A DNA stretch of 64,000 nucleotides from Sulfurospirillum diekertiae (GTDB lineage: Bacteria; Campylobacterota; Campylobacteria; Campylobacterales; Sulfurospirillaceae): NCBI RefSeq assembly GCF_002162315.1, contig NZ_CP021416.1, positions 2,554,207 through 2,618,206 on the forward strand, written 5' to 3'. Of this stretch, positions 54,704 through 63,983 are shown in pieces (position 1 is the stretch's first letter; every line of letters starts with the position of its first letter). Below the pieces are notes generated by a model that did not search any database, was not told where the DNA came from, and saw only the letters and a program-made list of their open reading frames with translations. The position numbers and the translations under genes were made by a program.

Positions 54704-55102
54704 CTATTGATCTTTACATGTAAGATAGTTTCGCCATCCACCATATTGACTGATTTCTTCTGCGCCTTTCAGGGCATCCGCTTCACATAAAAAACCATAC
54801 ACACTGCTTCCATCTTCTAAAAAAACGGTTCCAATGCATAAGGGTGACGCGATTTGCACCATAAACGCCCCAAAGTTTTCCAAGGGCATTTCCCACACTT
54901 CCAGCGCTAAAGCATAAGGACTTGTGCTGTCTTTGAGCATTCCTGGACGAGGTGGCAGTTTTTGAGGAACATCAAAAAGGCGGTATCCCACAACTGTTTT
55001 GCACGTTTTGATAAACACAGCTTCTAGGCTGAGTAGTTGATGATTGAGTGGCAGACCTTGCATATGTGCGCCGCATACGGCAATTTGGATAGTTTGATTC
55101 AT
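54704..55102 (-). CDS. Allophanate hydrolase C-terminal domain as a separate protein
   Basis: A 132-residue protein matching the C-terminal domain of AtzF-type allophanate hydrolases (VCGAHMQGLPLNHQLLSLEAVF, VGYRLFDVPQKLPPRPGMLKD, PYALALEVWEMP). In most bacteria this domain is fused to the amidase; it decarboxylates the N-carboxy product. Here it has its own AAGGAG ribosome site and an ATGA overlap with the amidase gene, so the split looks genuine. It is the last gene of the nitrogen-assimilation operon. Confidence 0.85.
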   Translation of the reverse strand: MNQTIQIAVCGAHMQGLPLNHQLLSLEAVFIKTCKTVVGYRLFDVPQKLPPRPGMLKDSTSPYALALEVWEMPLENFGAFMVQIASPLCIGTVFLEDGSSVYGFLCEADALKGAEEISQYGGWRNYLTCKDQ

Positions 55103-56427
55103 ACAGACTCCTTACGATAACGTTCACCCATCTCCAATAATGCTCTATCGTTAAAATGATCGGCAAAGAGGGTAATGCCAAATGGCAGATGATTACTTCG
55201 TTCTCCTGCTGGTAAAGCGTATGCCACAAGATCCAGAAGATTCATAAAATTGGTGTAATAGCCTAAATTACTATTGAGCGTTATAGGGTCAGCCTGAACA
55301 GCTTCAATGGTATAAATTGTTCCTGTGGTCGGCGTTACACAAAAGTCCACTTCGGCCAAAATCTTCTCCGCCGCTCTTCGATACGCTTTGAGTTGATACT
55401 CTGCTTCAAAATATTCACTCGCTTTTTTCATCTCTCCTTGGGCAATAATGGCACGCGTCACCTCTAAAAAGCTCTCAGGCGATGTGTGCAGCAGTGTTTG
55501 GGTCGCAAAATAGCGTTCGGCAACCCATGGTCCACTGTAGAGCAAATTGGCCGCTTCTAAAAAGGGGTTAAAATCAATCACTTTAGGTATGCCGCCTAAG
55601 CCAATCAAGCGCTGAATACTCTTCTCAAACAGCACTTTTGCCTCTGTGTCTCCGAAAAATTGAAGATCGCTCGCCTTGGGCACACCAAAGGTAAAGTTGA
55701 AGGGTATCGTACTCTTTTGGGGTGGTAATGCTCTGGCATAAACATCTTCTTCATCAAACGATGCCATAATCTCAAAGATCGTTGAAACATCGCTTGCTTC
55801 TTTACAAAACAACGAGACACAGTCCAAGCTACGACATGCGGGGACTACACCTGAAGTGCTCACGACTCCTTTGCTGGCTTTAAAGCCTAAGAGATTATTA
55901 AACGCCGCAGGCACTCTGCCTGAACCTGCGGTATCGGTTCCTAGAGAAAAAACGACCATATCAAGGGCAACACTGACCGCACTGCCTGAACTAGAGCCCC
56001 CTGAAATATACGCTGAGTCAATGCTGTTTTGACAAGCGCCATAAGGCGAACGTGTACCCACAAGCCCTGTGGCAAATTGGTCAAGATTAGTTTTGCCAAT
56101 AGGAATGGCTCCTGCTTCAATCAAACGCTCTACCACATAAGCAGATCGCTCTGGTAGATAGCTAAAGTCTGGACATGCCGCCGTGGTGGGAATACCCGCT
56201 AAGTCAATGTTGTCTTTTATAGCAAAGGGCACACCGTAAAGGGGTAACTCTTCCATCTTGGCATGCTCAAGTCTTGTTAAATAAGGCTCTAGTTCTGCAT
56301 CGCTTAAAACATGTAACCAGATAGGATTGTCTGAAAAGTGTGCGATACACTCTTTGATTTGTTGCACCAGTTCTCTCGGTGTACACATATTTTGAGCGTA
56401 ATTTTGCTTTACATGTAAAAGTGTCAT
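55099..56427 (-). CDS. atzF: Allophanate hydrolase, amidase domain
   Basis: A 442-residue amidase-signature enzyme. The Ser-cisSer-Lys triad is seen in GVPFAIKDNIDLAG (Lys), SGGSSSGSAVSVAL (Ser) and GTDTAGSGRVPAAF (Ser nucleophile). It cleaves allophanate to yield ammonium and CO2 with the C-terminal-domain protein encoded next. Context with the carboxylase and DUF1989 proteins supports allophanate as substrate. Overlaps the permease gene upstream by four bases. Confidence 0.88.
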   Translation of the reverse strand: MTLLHVKQNYAQNMCTPRELVQQIKECIAHFSDNPIWLHVLSDAELEPYLTRLEHAKMEELPLYGVPFAIKDNIDLAGIPTTAACPDFSYLPERSAYVVERLIEAGAIPIGKTNLDQFATGLVGTRSPYGACQNSIDSAYISGGSSSGSAVSVALDMVVFSLGTDTAGSGRVPAAFNNLLGFKASKGVVSTSGVVPACRSLDCVSLFCKEASDVSTIFEIMASFDEEDVYARALPPQKSTIPFNFTFGVPKASDLQFFGDTEAKVLFEKSIQRLIGLGGIPKVIDFNPFLEAANLLYSGPWVAERYFATQTLLHTSPESFLEVTRAIIAQGEMKKASEYFEAEYQLKAYRRAAEKILAEVDFCVTPTTGTIYTIEAVQADPITLNSNLGYYTNFMNLLDLVAYALPAGERSNHLPFGITLFADHFNDRALLEMGERYRKESV

Positions 56428-57305
56428 TCTCTCTCCTTTGTCTCATCTTCTTGCGTGCGCAGTGCCTCTATCAAGGCTGCACTGAGGATTAAAAATCCAC
56501 CGATATATTCTCTAAAATCCATCGTCTCCCCCGCAATCAGCGTTGCGGAAATCACCGCGGTGATCAGCTCCATAATGATAATAATGGACGAACGCCCTGC
56601 TTCCATATGGGTCACGCCCCATTGCGAACCGATATTGGCAAGCAAAAGCCAAATCAGTGCATACAATCCAAGTGCTCCCCACGCATGTATACTAACTTCT
56701 AGTGGGAAAGGCTCAACCTTCCCTAAGAGTAAAAGTCCTGCTAAGATAAAACAGCCGTAAAACATCGCCCCTATTTTAGAGGCAACAGGTACGCTTTGCG
56801 CAAAGCGAAAAAGCAGGTTATTGAGCGCAAATAAAAGCCCTGAGAGAAGCGCTAACGCATCAATCCATGAAGGCGAAGTGCTAAAGATTTTAAAGCCACC
56901 TAAAATCAAAAACGCACCTAAGACAGCCGCAACGACCCCAACCCAACGCCACCTATCAATGCGCTCTTTTAAAAAAAAGTAGCCACCCAAAACGCCCCAT
57001 ACGGGCAAAAGGTAAAAAAGCACCATCACACGAATCACTTCACCATTAATGAGTGCATAGGTAAATGTCAAGTTAGCTCCTCCACCGAATAAGGCAATCC
57101 AAAACATCATGTTTCGATGTTTCCACCCTAACGCTCTTTGTCTTACAAGTTGTGGGCTCATCACCAAAGCGATAATGCCATATGCTCCAAAACTCAAAGC
57201 AATACCCTGTATACCCATCGCATTGATGGCTTTGAGCGGAATCCATGAAAGCCCCCATAAAACAGAAGCACCGAGTAAAACAATGACGGGAAAGTAGCCT
57301 TTCAT
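56424..57305 (-). CDS. EamA/DMT family transporter
   Basis: A 293-residue inner-membrane protein with ten predicted helices in two EamA repeats (GASVLWGLSWIPLKAINAMG, then IDALALLSGLLFALNNLLFRFAQ). It lies inside the operon between the carboxylase (5 bp) and amidase genes. It could import or export the nitrogen compound or a by-product; direction and substrate cannot be read from the sequence. Confidence 0.85.
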   Translation of the reverse strand: MKGYFPVIVLLGASVLWGLSWIPLKAINAMGIQGIALSFGAYGIIALVMSPQLVRQRALGWKHRNMMFWIALFGGGANLTFTYALINGEVIRVMVLFYLLPVWGVLGGYFFLKERIDRWRWVGVVAAVLGAFLILGGFKIFSTSPSWIDALALLSGLLFALNNLLFRFAQSVPVASKIGAMFYGCFILAGLLLLGKVEPFPLEVSIHAWGALGLYALIWLLLANIGSQWGVTHMEAGRSSIIIIMELITAVISATLIAGETMDFREYIGGFLILSAALIEALRTQEDETKERE

Positions 57306-57310
57306 AATGG

Positions 57311-60300
57311 CTACGCTTTCAAAGGCTCTAAGATGAAAAGTTGTTTGCCCGCATAAATACTCTCACCCTCTTCACACAAAATATCCACAATCACACCATC
57401 TTCAGGCGATTCAATTTCTACTTCCATCTTCATCGACTCGACAATCGCTAAGGGTTCACCCTCTTTCACGGTGTGACCTACTTTGGCTAAAATCTTCCAT
57501 AAATTGCCTTGTATAGGAGCTTCAACCGCTTCTTTATCGTCATCAATCACCACTGAAGCACTCTCATCATGATGCTCTTCGTGTGCACTTTGTGAGGTAA
57601 AATTAGCAAGTCCCGTGCGTTCCCACATGTTGCGCTCTTCTTCAAATGCGTGTTGCTGAGTGGCTTTAAAGGCTTTGATAGTGGTCTCATTCTCATCTAA
57701 AAACGTTTGGTACTTTTTGAGGCTAAAGGTTGTCTCTTCAATACGCAATTTAGCTCGCCCTCTGGGGAAATCTTCACGCAAACGCAGTAACTCTTCCGCA
57801 CTCACTTCGTAAAAACGAATTTGGTCAAAAAAGCGCAATAACCACGGTTTCCCCTCTTTAAAATCTTCGGTTTGACGGTGGCGATTCCACATTTGAACGG
57901 TTCGTCCTACAAACTGATAGCCTCCTGGTCCTTCCATACCGTACACACACATATATGCCCCGCCAATTCCTACAGCGTTTTCAGGTGTCCATGTACGAGC
58001 AGGATTGTATTTGGTCGTCACCAGTCGATGCCTTGGATCAAGCGGCGTTGCCACAGGAGCACCCAGATACACATCGCCCAAGCCCATGACCAAATAGCTC
58101 GCTTCAAACAGAATACGTTTGACCTCATCAATGCTCTCTAATCCGTTAATGCGACGAATAAATTCAATATTGCTTGGACACCATGGTGCATCAGGACGGA
58201 CAATTTTCATATACTTATCAATCGCAATGCGCGTTTGTTCATCATCCCATGAAAGCGGCAAATGCACGATGCGCGCAGGCACTTCAATATCTTCTATGGA
58301 AGGTAAAGAGAGCTCTAAACTCTGCACCGTTTGCATCAGTGCTTCACGCTCACACAAACGTGGATTAAAATGAATCTGTAACGAACGGATTCCCGGTGTC
58401 AATTCAATCACACCGTGGATGTTGGCATCAACCACCGCTTGCATCAGCACATGAATGCGAAAACGTAAGCTAATATCGAGCTGCATTTCTCCGTATTCAA
58501 TCAGTAAATTGCTATCGCCTGATTGACGAAAGGTCACACTTGGCAAAAGCGCACTGCTTTCATCATAGTATAAAACGGGTGAGCCTATCTCTTTTTCACA
58601 CAACATCGCTCGTTCGTCATACGTCTTCAGTGAACAAAGCGCTTCATCTTGCAAGCGAAGCATCTGCATCGCTTCATCATGGCAGATAGGTACAAAGGTG
58701 ACGGTGTCGCCTGCACGTAGTTGTCCTATCTTCCAAAGCTCCGCACTGACAATCGTCACAGGACAGACAAAACCGCCCAAACTTGGACCATCAGGACCTA
58801 AGATAACGGGCATATCGCCCGTAAAATCCACCGCACCAATAGCATAGGCGGTATCGTGAATATTGGAAGGATGCAAACCTGCTTCTCCACCATCACTACG
58901 CGCCCATGTAGGTTTAGGACCGATGAGTCTTACCCCCGTGCGATTAGAGTTGTAATGCACTTCCCAACGGGCTTCAAAAAAGGCTTTGATATCTTCATTG
59001 GTAAAAAAATCGGGTGCGCCATGTGGTCCATACAACACTCCAATGCGCCACTCATTTGTAAATGAACGATAAGGGGTAATGGTCTCAAAACACGCTTCTT
59101 TGGCAACCATGGCATCCACATGCAGCACATCTCCTGCAAGCAATGCTCTTCCCGCATGTCCGCCAAAAAGTCCTAAAGAGAACGTCGAACGGCTTCCTAA
59201 ATACAAAGGCACATCAATGCCCCCTCGCACGGCAAGGTAGCTTCTAAAGCCTTTCGTGTGTACTTTTTTTGAGTTTTTAAAACACTGCCAGCTTTTACAT
59301 GTAACGCTTGATTCATGCCCACTTTAACACCATCAATAAAAGCATCAATCACAGCGCCACACAGCGCAATAACTCCATCATAGTTAAAGCGAAGCGTAGG
59401 ACCAGCAATGGCTATCTCAAGACCTGCGGCATCATCACTATTACCGACTAAAGCATTAGCATAACGAAAACTAAGGTTATCATACGGACCGCTCGGAGGT
59501 ACGCCAATGTCCCAATACCCGATTCTCCCCGGATAATCTTGCACGGTTGTATGCGTTCCGGGACGCAAAATATCAATACTTTGAGGAGCAAAGCGAAATG
59601 TATTGAGAAACTTGGTCGTTTGTTTGCCTGCTTGAAAAACATCTCCCGCTACAATCGCGCCAAGGTAGTCTAAATTGGTTTCAATCCCATCAATGCGCGT
59701 CTCTTTAATCGCCTGCGCCATTTTGGCTAAGGCGTTTTCTCGTGTATTTTCTTTGACAATCAGCTTTGCAATCATCGGATCGTAAAATGACGAAACATTC
59801 AAACCCGTTTCGATAAAGCTATCCACTCGAATAGAGGGAGCAAAATGCACGTGGGTGAGCACACCAGAGCTGGGTTGAAAATTTTTCATCGGATCTTCGG
59901 CATACACACGCACTTGGATAGAATGCCCATGAGGCATGTGCTTATATTCGTACAATTCGGGATTATGCCCATACGCTTGTGTGATCATCCATCGCACTAA
60001 GTCGATGCCGCTGACTTCTTCGGTCACACCGTGTTCGACTTGCAAACGGGTATTGACCTCTAAAAAATAAAACTGCTCACTTTGCGTATCGTACACAAAT
60101 TCAACTGTCCCAGCGGAGAGATACTTAACTGACTCACACAAAGTACGCGCCGCACTGAAAAGCGCTTCACGTGTCTTTACATGTAAAAAAGGAGCGGGAG
60201 TTTCTTCAATGACTTTTTGGTTACGGCGTTGCACCGAGCAGTCTCGCTCCCCAAGCGTTGCGACATAGCCTTTGCCATCGCCAAAGACTTGCACCTCGAT

Positions 60301-60921
60301 ATGACGCGCATGTTCAACGTATTTTTCTAAAAACATTCCGCCATTGGAGAAGTTGTTTTCACTGAGGCGTTTGACCGAAGCATACGCATCGCAAAGGGCT
60401 TGTTCGTCATAACACAACTGCATCCCGATGCCACCACCCCCAGCGGTACTTTTGAGCATTACAGGGTAACCGATACGTTTGGCTTCCACTATTGCTTCGT
60501 CTAAATCCAAGAGCAATGAAGAGCCGGGAAGGAGAGGAACATTGTTAGATTCGGCAAGGGAGCGTGCGGTATGCTTAAGACCAAAAGCTTCCATATGTTC
60601 AGCCCGCGGGCCAATAAACACGATGCCCTTTTCTTCACATGCTTTGGCAAACGTGGCATTTTCACTTAAAAATCCATACCCCGGATGAATCGCCTCCGCG
60701 CCACTTTTATAGACCACATCAAAGATTTTTTGGGTATCAAGGTAACTCTCGCTGGCTAAGCCTTCACCAATACAATACGCCTCATCGGCCAAGCTTACAT
60801 GTAAAGAATCTTCATCCGCTTTGGTGTACAGGGCAACAGAAGCAATGCCCATCTTTTTGAGCGTGCGTATGATGCGACACGCGATTTCGCCTCGGTTGGC
60901 GATCAATATTTTTGAAAACAT
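57311..60921 (-). pseudogene. Biotin-dependent guanidine/urea carboxylase, frameshifted in an A7 tract
   Basis: About 1,200 residues when joined. The N-terminal 574-codon frame has the biotin carboxylase (ILIANRGEIACRIIRTLKKMG, KSTAGGGGIGMQL, EVNTRLQVEHGVTEE) and the start of the carboxyltransferase A domain. At the A run (59264-59270, T on +) it leaves frame; adding one A restores [23 protein letters not shown] into the 639-codon frame with the rest of the carboxyltransferase and a biotin domain (VESMKMEVE) at the C-terminus. The family is called urea carboxylase; the riboswitch and DUF1989 genes argue for guanidine. If the shift is real the enzyme would be two overlapping halves (59197-60921 and 57311-59230). 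Confidence 0.85.
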
Positions 60922-60942
60922 TTCTCATCCTGTATGATGGTT

Positions 60943-60983
60943 TTGGGTCGTCCCAAGTTCATCTCTTTTCTAGGCCGTCCTAG
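60943..60983 (-). ncRNA. Guanidine-II (mini-ykkC) riboswitch
   Basis: Read on the minus strand, two small hairpins have ACGR tetraloops: CTAGG-ACGG-CCTAG (60983-60970) and TTGGG-ACGA-CCCAA (60956-60943), separated by a 13-nt linker. This is the defining structure of guanidine-II riboswitches, where guanidine docks the two loops and frees the ribosome site. The second hairpin ends 21 nt before the carboxylase ATG, just upstream of AGGATGAGAA. An upstream GCCTAG (60997-61002) could pair alternatively with the first stem. Confidence 0.88.
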
Positions 60984-61020
60984 CAAAGAAGAAGATGCGC
61001 TCTTCTAGGCGGTTATGCGA

Positions 61021-61644
61021 TCACTCTTTATCCCAGACGATCATCTGTATGGGTGTCGGATTAAATCCATTGCACGGATTGTTGAGCTGTGGGCAGTTGG
61101 AAACTAAGACTAAGGTATCCATCACCGCTGTCATTTCGACATAATCACCCGGTTTGGAGATACCATCCACAATCGCTAAATGACCATTTTCTTCCACAGG
61201 GACGTTCATAAAAAAGTTAATGTTATTGGTAAGATCACGAGGGTTCATCTCCAATTCACCGACTTCAAATAAAAAGTTATCGCGACAGCTGTGCATGTAC
61301 TTTTTATCATGCCCGAAACGTACGGTATTGCTCTCGGCACTGCAATGTCCACCAAGGGTATCATGGTTTCCACACGTATCTGCCACCACTTCCATCAACA
61401 CATTGTCATCGCTGGAGATCAGTTTCGTTCCTGTCGTAATAAAGATACTGCCTTGTTCTCGTATCGTATCGGACGCACTGTAACGCTCTTCGTGATCATG
61501 TGCATTATAAAACAGTGTATCGACCGCTTGACATCCCTCTAAATCCACAATGCGCAGTGTTTGTCCTTTATAAATGATTTTTGACCATGGAATGCCAGAA
61601 GGCACATGTTCATTGTAAATGGCGGTTTGAATTTCTCGTTTCAT
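61021..61644 (-). CDS. DUF1989 protein (urea-carboxylase-associated / carboxyguanidine deiminase subunit)
   Basis: A 207-residue cytoplasmic protein of the DUF1989 family (RIVDLEGCQAVDTLFYNAHDHEERYSA, CGNHDTLGGHCSAESNTVRFGHDKKY, NFFMNVPVEENGHLAI). Pairs of such proteins form the carboxyguanidine deiminase that converts carboxyguanidine to allophanate in guanidine-degrading bacteria. Cys and His residues suited to metal binding are visible. ATG 61644 follows AAGGAG; GTG 61647 is less likely. It is 6 bp after the companion gene. Confidence 0.88.
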   Translation of the reverse strand: MKREIQTAIYNEHVPSGIPWSKIIYKGQTLRIVDLEGCQAVDTLFYNAHDHEERYSASDTIREQGSIFITTGTKLISSDDNVLMEVVADTCGNHDTLGGHCSAESNTVRFGHDKKYMHSCRDNFLFEVGELEMNPRDLTNNINFFMNVPVEENGHLAIVDGISKPGDYVEMTAVMDTLVLVSNCPQLNNPCNGFNPTPIQMIVWDKE

Positions 61645-61653
61645 CACATCTCC

Positions 61654-62391
61654 TTACGCAAAATAGCGGGCATTGTTCTCAAAACCACGTTTGGCTTCGG
61701 GACTAAAATTCATACAAAAATCATCTTCACTCAAAGGAGCACCTTGATAAATGGTGATTTGCACATCACTAGGGTTATACACCCCTTTTTCCATCACATG
61801 CGGTGTGTTAGAGAGCACTAAAAGCACATTCATCTCTGCTCTTAACTCAATATAACCACACGTCTCTGGGCGCAACGGTGAAAGAGAAAGTTTGCTTCCC
61901 TCTTTAACATCTACTTTACGAAACAGATTAAGACACGCAACAATGTCTCGTTTTCCCATACCGTATTTTCCAAGCTCTACCAAGAAATTTTCACGATCAC
62001 TCTTGTAGTAGCGGTTACGAATATCGTTAAATGACCCTTCACCAAAATTTTCTTTGACAAGGCGTGGATTGCTCATGCCTGCTACTGTATCCATGAGTCC
62101 GTTGGTCGTATCTTCGGTAATAGAAAAGAGAATATGTCCGAGTTCTGAAAACAGAACTTTGCCTTTTCCTAAAAATGCGTTCCATTGAATTTTAACCGTA
62201 TCGGCGAAGTTATAGCGCTCAGCGGTATTATCAGCATTGTAAAAAAGAGCACTCACAGCTCCTTTGCCATCTTCCGTGCTGATGCGCACCTTTTGACCAC
62301 GTTTAATGATTTTAGACCATTTACCACCGCCGGGCAATACTTCATCCAGCACAATGCTCTCTTGCTTAAGATTGAGATGTTTGCTTATCAT
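61654..62391 (-). CDS. DUF1989 protein, second subunit
   Basis: A 245-residue paralogue of the next gene product (LPGGGKWSKIIKRGQKVRISTEDGKGAVSALFYNADNTAERYNFADTVKIQW, NLFRKVDVKEGSKLSL). It is the larger partner of the putative carboxyguanidine deiminase. Encoded in tandem with the smaller subunit. GAGGGAAG precedes ATG 62391. Confidence 0.88.
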   Translation of the reverse strand: MISKHLNLKQESIVLDEVLPGGGKWSKIIKRGQKVRISTEDGKGAVSALFYNADNTAERYNFADTVKIQWNAFLGKGKVLFSELGHILFSITEDTTNGLMDTVAGMSNPRLVKENFGEGSFNDIRNRYYKSDRENFLVELGKYGMGKRDIVACLNLFRKVDVKEGSKLSLSPLRPETCGYIELRAEMNVLLVLSNTPHVMEKGVYNPSDVQITIYQGAPLSEDDFCMNFSPEAKRGFENNARYFA

Positions 62392-62415: not shown

Positions 62416-63168
62416 TTAATTTTTTTTAAACACACTCTCCTTCTCTTTTTTATCGTGAAGGGGAATATCATAGGTTATTTTGGCTCCAAAGGCATTCGGT
62501 GCTTGTGGGTCAAGACGTACTTTATCGAACACCAGAAGCCTTGTTCCTAGGTAAAATCCTTCGTGAAGATCATGCGTGACCATCACAACCGTTAAATTAT
62601 TTTTTTTCCATAAATCCAAAATGAGTGCGTGCATGTCAGCCCTGATACCCGGATCCAGTGCACCAAAAGGCTCATCGAGCAGTAACAGTTTTGGCTTTTT
62701 CACCAACGATTGCGCGATGGAGAGACGTTGCTGCATACCACCGGAGAGTTGACTTGGATAGTGATGCAACACATCCCCTAGCCCTACTGCTTCAAGCATC
62801 GCTATCGCCTCTTCACGTGCTCTTTTCTTCGCTTTACCAAAGAGTTTACCCAAAAGAGGCGATGCCCCTAGTTCAATGCCAAGCATTACATTTTCCAATA
62901 CACTCAGATGCGAAAAGAGTGAATAGCGCTGAAACACAATACCTCGCTCAGCGCTTGGCTCGGCAGGGAACGGTTTGCCTTCAAATAAAAACAGACCTTT
63001 TGTCGGGCTCTCTTCCCCTAAAAGCATTTTTAAAAACGTACTCTTGCCACACCCTGAAGGGCCAACCAGCGTACAAAATTCTCCTGCTTCAATACTAAAG
63101 GAGAGGTTTTCCAACACAACCGTTTCACCATAGCGTTTCCACAAGTTCTTAATGGTGATTAAACTCAT
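62416..63168 (-). CDS. NitT/TauT-type ABC transporter ATPase
   Basis: A 250-residue ATPase: Walker A GPSGCGKST, Q loop FQRYSLFSH, signature LSGGMQQRLSIAQSL, Walker [15 protein letters not shown] and H loop VTHDLHEGF. It energises uptake, probably of guanidine or a related nitrogen source given its neighbours. Overlaps the permease gene by four bases and lies 24 bp before the DUF1989 genes. Confidence 0.92.
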   Translation of the reverse strand: MSLITIKNLWKRYGETVVLENLSFSIEAGEFCTLVGPSGCGKSTFLKMLLGEESPTKGLFLFEGKPFPAEPSAERGIVFQRYSLFSHLSVLENVMLGIELGASPLLGKLFGKAKKRAREEAIAMLEAVGLGDVLHHYPSQLSGGMQQRLSIAQSLVKKPKLLLLDEPFGALDPGIRADMHALILDLWKKNNLTVVMVTHDLHEGFYLGTRLLVFDKVRLDPQAPNAFGAKITYDIPLHDKKEKESVFKKN

Positions 63169-63983
63169 GCTTTATCCTTATTTTCGTACCATGGGAAAAG
63201 TTTACATGTAAACTTTTTCAGTAGAAAATCTGCTAAAAAAGCCAACAAAGTGATCCAAATAACATAGGGTAAAATCATATCCATCGCCAAATAACGACGC
63301 ACCAAAAAGATGCGATACCCAAGCCCCTCTGTAGCAGCAATAGCTTCTGAGGAGATCAAAAATATCCACGCGGTTCCCAAGGTCAAACGTACCGAATCTA
63401 AAAGGCGCGGTAACATTTGCGGAAGAATGATACGGATCACAAGCGTCCATGTCGAAGCACCCAATGTTTGCGCTTTAATGAGCTGCTCTTTGGAAAACTC
63501 CTCAACGCGGTGTTGTAAATCACGCACGATAAGTGGTGTGACACCGATAACAATGAGTGCCACTTTTGCCACTTCCCCCATCCCAAATATAATAAAGAGA
63601 ATAGGTAAAATGGCAATCGGTGGTACCATTGAAAAAGCTGCGATAAAGGGTGAAAGACCCGCTCTGACTAACGGAATAAGCCCTAGAGGAATACTAATGA
63701 TAAGCCCCATAAGAGCACTGATAACCACACCAATGCCTAAACGTTTGAGCGAAGAGAGCGTATCATTGATAAAAATAACCTCTCCTGAACGCTTGCTAGG
63801 ACTTAAGGCAGATTTTTCCATTGTGTCAACCATATGCGAAAAAGAGGGTAAGAGTTTATCGTCCTCATTTTCGTGTAGTCTTGCATTCGATGCAAAAACA
63901 TACATCAACACAATCAGTAAAAAAGGCATCAGCCCTAGCACAAGAGCTTTGGAATGAGAAGGCTTTTGGTTAATCAGTCGCAT
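63165..63983 (-). CDS. NitT/TauT-type ABC transporter permease
   Basis: A 272-residue inner-membrane permease with about six helices and an EAA-type loop (QLIKAQTLGASTWTLVIRIILPQMLPR). It pairs with the ATPase encoded next; the expected periplasmic binding protein is probably just outside the right edge. ATG 63983 is preceded by AGAGGA. The gene is complete in the window. Confidence 0.92.
   Translation of the reverse strand: MRLINQKPSHSKALVLGLMPFLLIVLMYVFASNARLHENEDDKLLPSFSHMVDTMEKSALSPSKRSGEVIFINDTLSSLKRLGIGVVISALMGLIISIPLGLIPLVRAGLSPFIAAFSMVPPIAILPILFIIFGMGEVAKVALIVIGVTPLIVRDLQHRVEEFSKEQLIKAQTLGASTWTLVIRIILPQMLPRLLDSVRLTLGTAWIFLISSEAIAATEGLGYRIFLVRRYLAMDMILPYVIWITLLAFLADFLLKKFTCKLFPWYENKDKA

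Follow-up and report, generated by a model that had tools for sequence, protein, structure and literature searches.

The window, i.e., the whole 64,000-nt stretch of Sulfurospirillum diekertiae DNA analyzed here, carries on its minus strand most of a guanidine-assimilation operon with the order Guanidine-I riboswitch, substrate-binding protein, permease, ATPase, UAAP1, UAAP2, Guanidine-II riboswitch, carboxylase, EamA transporter, and allophanate hydrolase, the last of these encoded in two ORFs (Table 1). The Guanidine-I riboswitch (86.8 bits versus a cut-off of 63) lies at the operon head, 1.1 kb past the window end; features located there are given in window-equivalent positions, obtained by adding 54,000 to the coordinates of locus L112. 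The split allophanate hydrolase (54704-56427, minus strand) seems to be arranged alike in locus L122, so that a natural split, rather than damage, looks likely. The EamA transporter is found between the carboxylase and the allophanate hydrolase in many Campylobacterota operons, whereas the proteobacterial loci lack it in this position.

Table 1. Features of the guanidine operon and of the loci compared with it (positions are those of the window unless marked otherwise)
Feature	Position	Strand	Evidence
Guanidine-I riboswitch	window-equivalent 65135-65234 (L112 11135-11234)	-	Rfam
ABC substrate-binding protein	window-equivalent 64021-65118		TIGR03427, above cut-off
ABC transporter permease (importer)	63165-63983	-	family models
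ABC transporter ATPase (importer)	62416-63168	-	family models
UAAP1 (DUF1989), carboxyguanidine deiminase subunit	61654-62391	-	TIGR03425, above cut-off, 279 bits
UAAP2 (DUF1989), carboxyguanidine deiminase subunit	61021-61647	-	TIGR03424, above cut-off, 348 bits
Guanidine-II riboswitch, P1 hairpin, CTAGG-ACGG-CCTAG	60970-60983	-	motif search, RF01068, fold, covariation
P1-P2 linker, AAAAGAGATGAAC, purine-rich	60957-60969	-	motif search, duplex test
Guanidine-II riboswitch, P2 hairpin, TTGGG-ACGA-CCCAA	60943-60956	-	motif search, RF01068, covariation
Shine-Dalgarno-like AGGA between P2 and carboxylase ATG	60928-60931	-	sequence, folding
Guanidine carboxylase, N-terminal ORF (574 aa): biotin carboxylase and beginning of carboxyltransferase domain, cut short by frameshift	59197-60921	-	
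Frameshift site, contains A_AAA_AAG	59264-59278	-	comparison with G056 and G206
Guanidine carboxylase, C-terminal ORF (639 aa): carboxyltransferase and biotin carrier domains, Asp135/Asp386	57311-59230	-	
EamA (DMT superfamily) transporter, within operon	56424-57305	-	
Allophanate hydrolase, amidase part	55099-56427	-	family models
Allophanate hydrolase, C-terminal domain, separate ORF with 4-nt overlap	54704-55102	-	family models
KdpE-like response-regulator gene, split	window-equivalent 68539-69117 (L112 14539-15117)	-	
Example of three-switch cluster, Guanidine-II copies	L115 5754-5798 and 9029-9067	+	
Example of three-switch cluster, Guanidine-I	G288:C1:1146914-1147012		
Three extra genes of the L115 operon	L115 7192-8205, 8217-8999, 12706-13557	+	

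An exact motif search detected tandem hairpins with ACGG and ACGA loops on the minus strand at 60943-60983, the place where the sequence-only reading had noticed a two-hairpin match to the mini-ykkC consensus just before the ribosome site. Read 5' to 3' on that strand, the element consists of CTAGG-ACGG-CCTAG, the 13-nt linker AAAAGAGATGAAC, and TTGGG-ACGA-CCCAA, followed by AGGA and the carboxylase ATG at 60921; in the predicted fold, the P1 stem is extended by a lower UCUUU/AAAGA helix outside a G.A mismatch. Tandem ACGR hairpins of this form were observed once in 124 kb of the genome, versus 0.025 expected under a first-order Markov model. In an Rfam search with an E-value threshold, the Guanidine-II model (RF01068) matched positions 60944-60986 of the same strand over its full length, with 26.5 bits against a gathering cut-off of 32. 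The check with the mini-ykkC covariance model, suggested along with the original observation, thus gave a divided result: the score remains below the curated cut-off, but this match, with an E value of 0.003, is unique in the 2.88-Mb genome, and the orthologous sites in congeners G209, G235, and G248 pass with 36.8, 33.1, and 33.1 bits, respectively. An Rfam scan of the window at gathering cut-offs returned no match, so standard annotation would miss the Guanidine-II riboswitch here.

The gene directly downstream of this element, expected to form a single frame of about 1,200 codons, is interrupted in this genome, and no second copy of the carboxylase was detected there. The sequence-only reading did not report this interruption. 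Compared with congeners G056 and G206, both of which encode the carboxylase in an unbroken 1,203-residue frame, the A5 (59274-59278) and A7 (59264-59270) runs each contain one additional base. With its carboxylase ORF broken, this strain may be unable to produce the enzyme by normal translation; if the frameshift is not a sequencing error, the carboxylase may be absent or come from recoding only. It is conceivable, if rather unlikely, that the riboswitch is genuine but a relic that controls a dead gene, the carboxylase having been inactivated by a true frameshift. Such a loss would agree with two one-base differences in A runs only 3 nt apart that result in a net change of frame, with the intact frame in both congeners, and with the lack of a second detected copy. 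However, no other frame lesion is present, and apart from this interruption the two gene halves, the diagnostic residues, and the core of the riboswitch are all intact. Besides, a survey of ∼124 kb of the genome revealed a second split gene, located outside the window, which encodes a KdpE-like response regulator and is broken at an A run with an extra A relative to G206. This second case speaks just as much for homopolymer error in sequencing. A pair of such A-run lesions fits errors of sequencing or assembly best, with mutation as a less probable alternative.

The remaining option, a real interruption bypassed by -1 ribosomal frameshifting at A_AAA_AAG, so that full-length carboxylase is still made, appears very improbable. 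The phase of this heptamer suits -1 slippage, which would yield the full-length protein with one extra residue, and the structure downstream of it folds somewhat better than shuffled sequences (z score of -1.98), but the effect is too small to make a case for programmed frameshifting. A recoding explanation shared by both A-run frameshifts was rejected because another kind of shift would be required in the response-regulator gene. If true, frameshifting at this site would represent a recoding step on top of two guanidine riboswitches. The frameshifted carboxylase leaves function in this particular strain uncertain.

The substrate of the pathway can be judged from its enzymes. In the alignment with the urea amidolyase of Kluyveromyces lactis (5i8i), in which the diagnostic positions were counted by hand, Asp135 of the C-terminal carboxylase ORF is found opposite Asn1330 and Asp386 opposite Asp1584. 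Asp residues at both of these positions serve as the criterion for guanidine carboxylase (PMC11410670), and both are present in all 104 loci (104/104). UAAP1, UAAP2, allophanate hydrolase, and the TIGR03427 substrate-binding protein all score above their family cut-offs, and UAAP1 and UAAP2 are, as PMC11410670 cites Schneider et al. (2020), the subunits of carboxyguanidine deiminase. The diagnostic Asp pair and the UAAP1 and UAAP2 scores support a guanidine pathway and, along with the guanidine switches, agree with the initial assignment of this locus to guanidine rather than urea assimilation. Assimilation of urea by a true urea carboxylase, for which the public models that label these genes as urea carboxylase and urea amidolyase-associated proteins could be invoked, is hardly credible given the Asp instead of Asn at the K. 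lactis 1330 position, the two classes of guanidine riboswitches in one operon, and the deiminase role of UAAP1/UAAP2 attributed in PMC11410670 to Schneider et al. (2020). Relative to the pathway of guanidine carboxylase, CgdAB, and allophanate hydrolase, as represented in PMC11410670 with reference to Schneider et al. (2020), all enzymes are encoded here, with matching diagnostic residues and family scores; the difference is the interrupted carboxylase frame in this genome. Guanidine would be converted by the carboxylase to carboxyguanidine, which UAAP1/UAAP2 would turn into allophanate, to be split by allophanate hydrolase into ammonia and CO2. A full-text search of a collection of open-access papers turned up none that deals with the metabolism of guanidine in Sulfurospirillum.

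The 41-nt core of the element is unchanged in congeners G056 and G206, in which the DNA of the carboxylase region is ∼88% identical. Across 56 copies found upstream of carboxylase genes, a scripted count showed that the inner P1 and P2 pairs are kept through compensatory changes; the fourth pair of P1, for example, is CG, TA, AT, or GC and is paired in 54 of the 56 copies. These copies include a few near-duplicates, with pairs counted at fixed distances from the loops, and the pairing percentages lean upward because the loops were picked for flanking pairs; the variety of pair types is free of this bias. A full carboxylase is encoded in 24 of the 397 genomes sampled from the class; weaker matches (25 to 37% identity) look like other carboxyltransferase-type proteins. 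The Guanidine-II riboswitch was detected in 22 of these 24 Campylobacterota genomes, as a rule directly before the carboxylase. In 13 carboxylase-free genomes used for comparison, 9 of them from the same genus, it was not detected at E values up to 1. The Guanidine-I riboswitch occurs in every one of the 24 and is absent from the same 13, so that both switches occur together in 22 of the 24 sampled carboxylase-bearing genomes. A chance resemblance, or an intergenic structure unrelated to guanidine, would fit the score under the gathering cut-off but is extremely unlikely in view of the genome-wide E value, the orthologues above the cut-off, the covariation, and the co-occurrence with guanidine genes.

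Some of the surveyed clusters deviate from the two-switch arrangement. In genomes G389 and G362 (loci L130 and L132, respectively), no Guanidine-II riboswitch was detected; each of them has the carboxylase and two Guanidine-I copies. Five other genomes (G288, G305, G191, G360, and G396) have three guanidine switches per cluster, with Guanidine-I at the head and Guanidine-II both before UAAP1 and before the carboxylase. The guanidine operon of L115 additionally encodes a protein resembling fatty-acid desaturases, one with a metallo-beta-lactamase fold, and a xylose-isomerase-like TIM barrel protein; these three might act on substituted guanidines.

With its structure, position, conservation, and co-occurrence directly observed, and the diagnostic residues in place in the enzyme downstream, the element is very probably a Guanidine-II (mini-ykkC) riboswitch located between two cistrons of an operon for guanidine assimilation and, in the presence of guanidine, should increase carboxylase translation. 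Its location inside the cluster, before the carboxylase, which the sequence-only reading had emphasized, is borne out by the covariance-model matches and by conservation. This location is not unusual: it corresponds to a published layout and is common in the loci compared, including many beta- and gammaproteobacterial ones, in which Guanidine-II likewise directly precedes the carboxylase. In three enterobacteria, Guanidine-I has been described before the importer and deiminase genes and Guanidine-II before the carboxylase and allophanate hydrolase genes (PMC12186494). The same two-switch order is seen here, in a member of Campylobacterota, with the addition of the EamA transporter, an allophanate hydrolase in two ORFs, and a carboxylase that is frameshifted in this assembly. 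The leader before the carboxylase contains no promoter-like or terminator-like site on this strand, as expected for a translational switch inside a single transcript.

As established for the Guanidine-II family, guanidine is bound by both loops, which then form kissing loops, and the ribosome site is freed. The S. diekertiae element resembles RF01068 members in having two ACGR-loop hairpins with conserved closing pairs that adjoin the start codon of a guanidine gene, and it differs from them in its score below the gathering cut-off, the G.A mismatch in the lower P1 stem, and the purine-rich linker. In the E. coli Guanidine-II riboswitch, an anti-Shine-Dalgarno sequence has been proposed in the linker; none is evident in the P1-P2 linker here. 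Pairing of the region upstream of P1 with the Shine-Dalgarno region, judged by duplex energies, was no better than for shuffled sequences, and an anti-Shine-Dalgarno sequence at that place was rejected. In the predicted folds of the window sequence and of G056, a CCU triplet pairs with AGGA and masks the Shine-Dalgarno sequence, but an 8-nt deletion in G206 removes this CCU and leaves AGGA much freer, so this helix was discarded as a conserved switch. Since a masking partner was not found for this RNA, the direction of switching is taken from the family, and the ligand and the translational mode are likewise proposed by analogy with known families. By that analogy, the ACGR loops of both hairpins would bind guanidine and then pair in a kissing-loop interaction, and more carboxylase would be translated from the downstream AGGA and ATG. 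At the level of the operon, the head Guanidine-I riboswitch would gate the whole transcript, so that guanidine first allows transcription of the importer, deiminase, and carboxylase genes; in a separate second step, the Guanidine-II riboswitch would boost translation of the carboxylase, an ATP-using enzyme.

That Sulfurospirillum and other Campylobacterota combine two riboswitch classes in an operon for guanidine assimilation, as already described in enterobacteria, extends known biology modestly and does not represent a new system. It adds a site that is overlooked at the standard Rfam cut-offs, corrects the urea annotation of these genes, and offers testable predictions for guanidine use in Campylobacterota.
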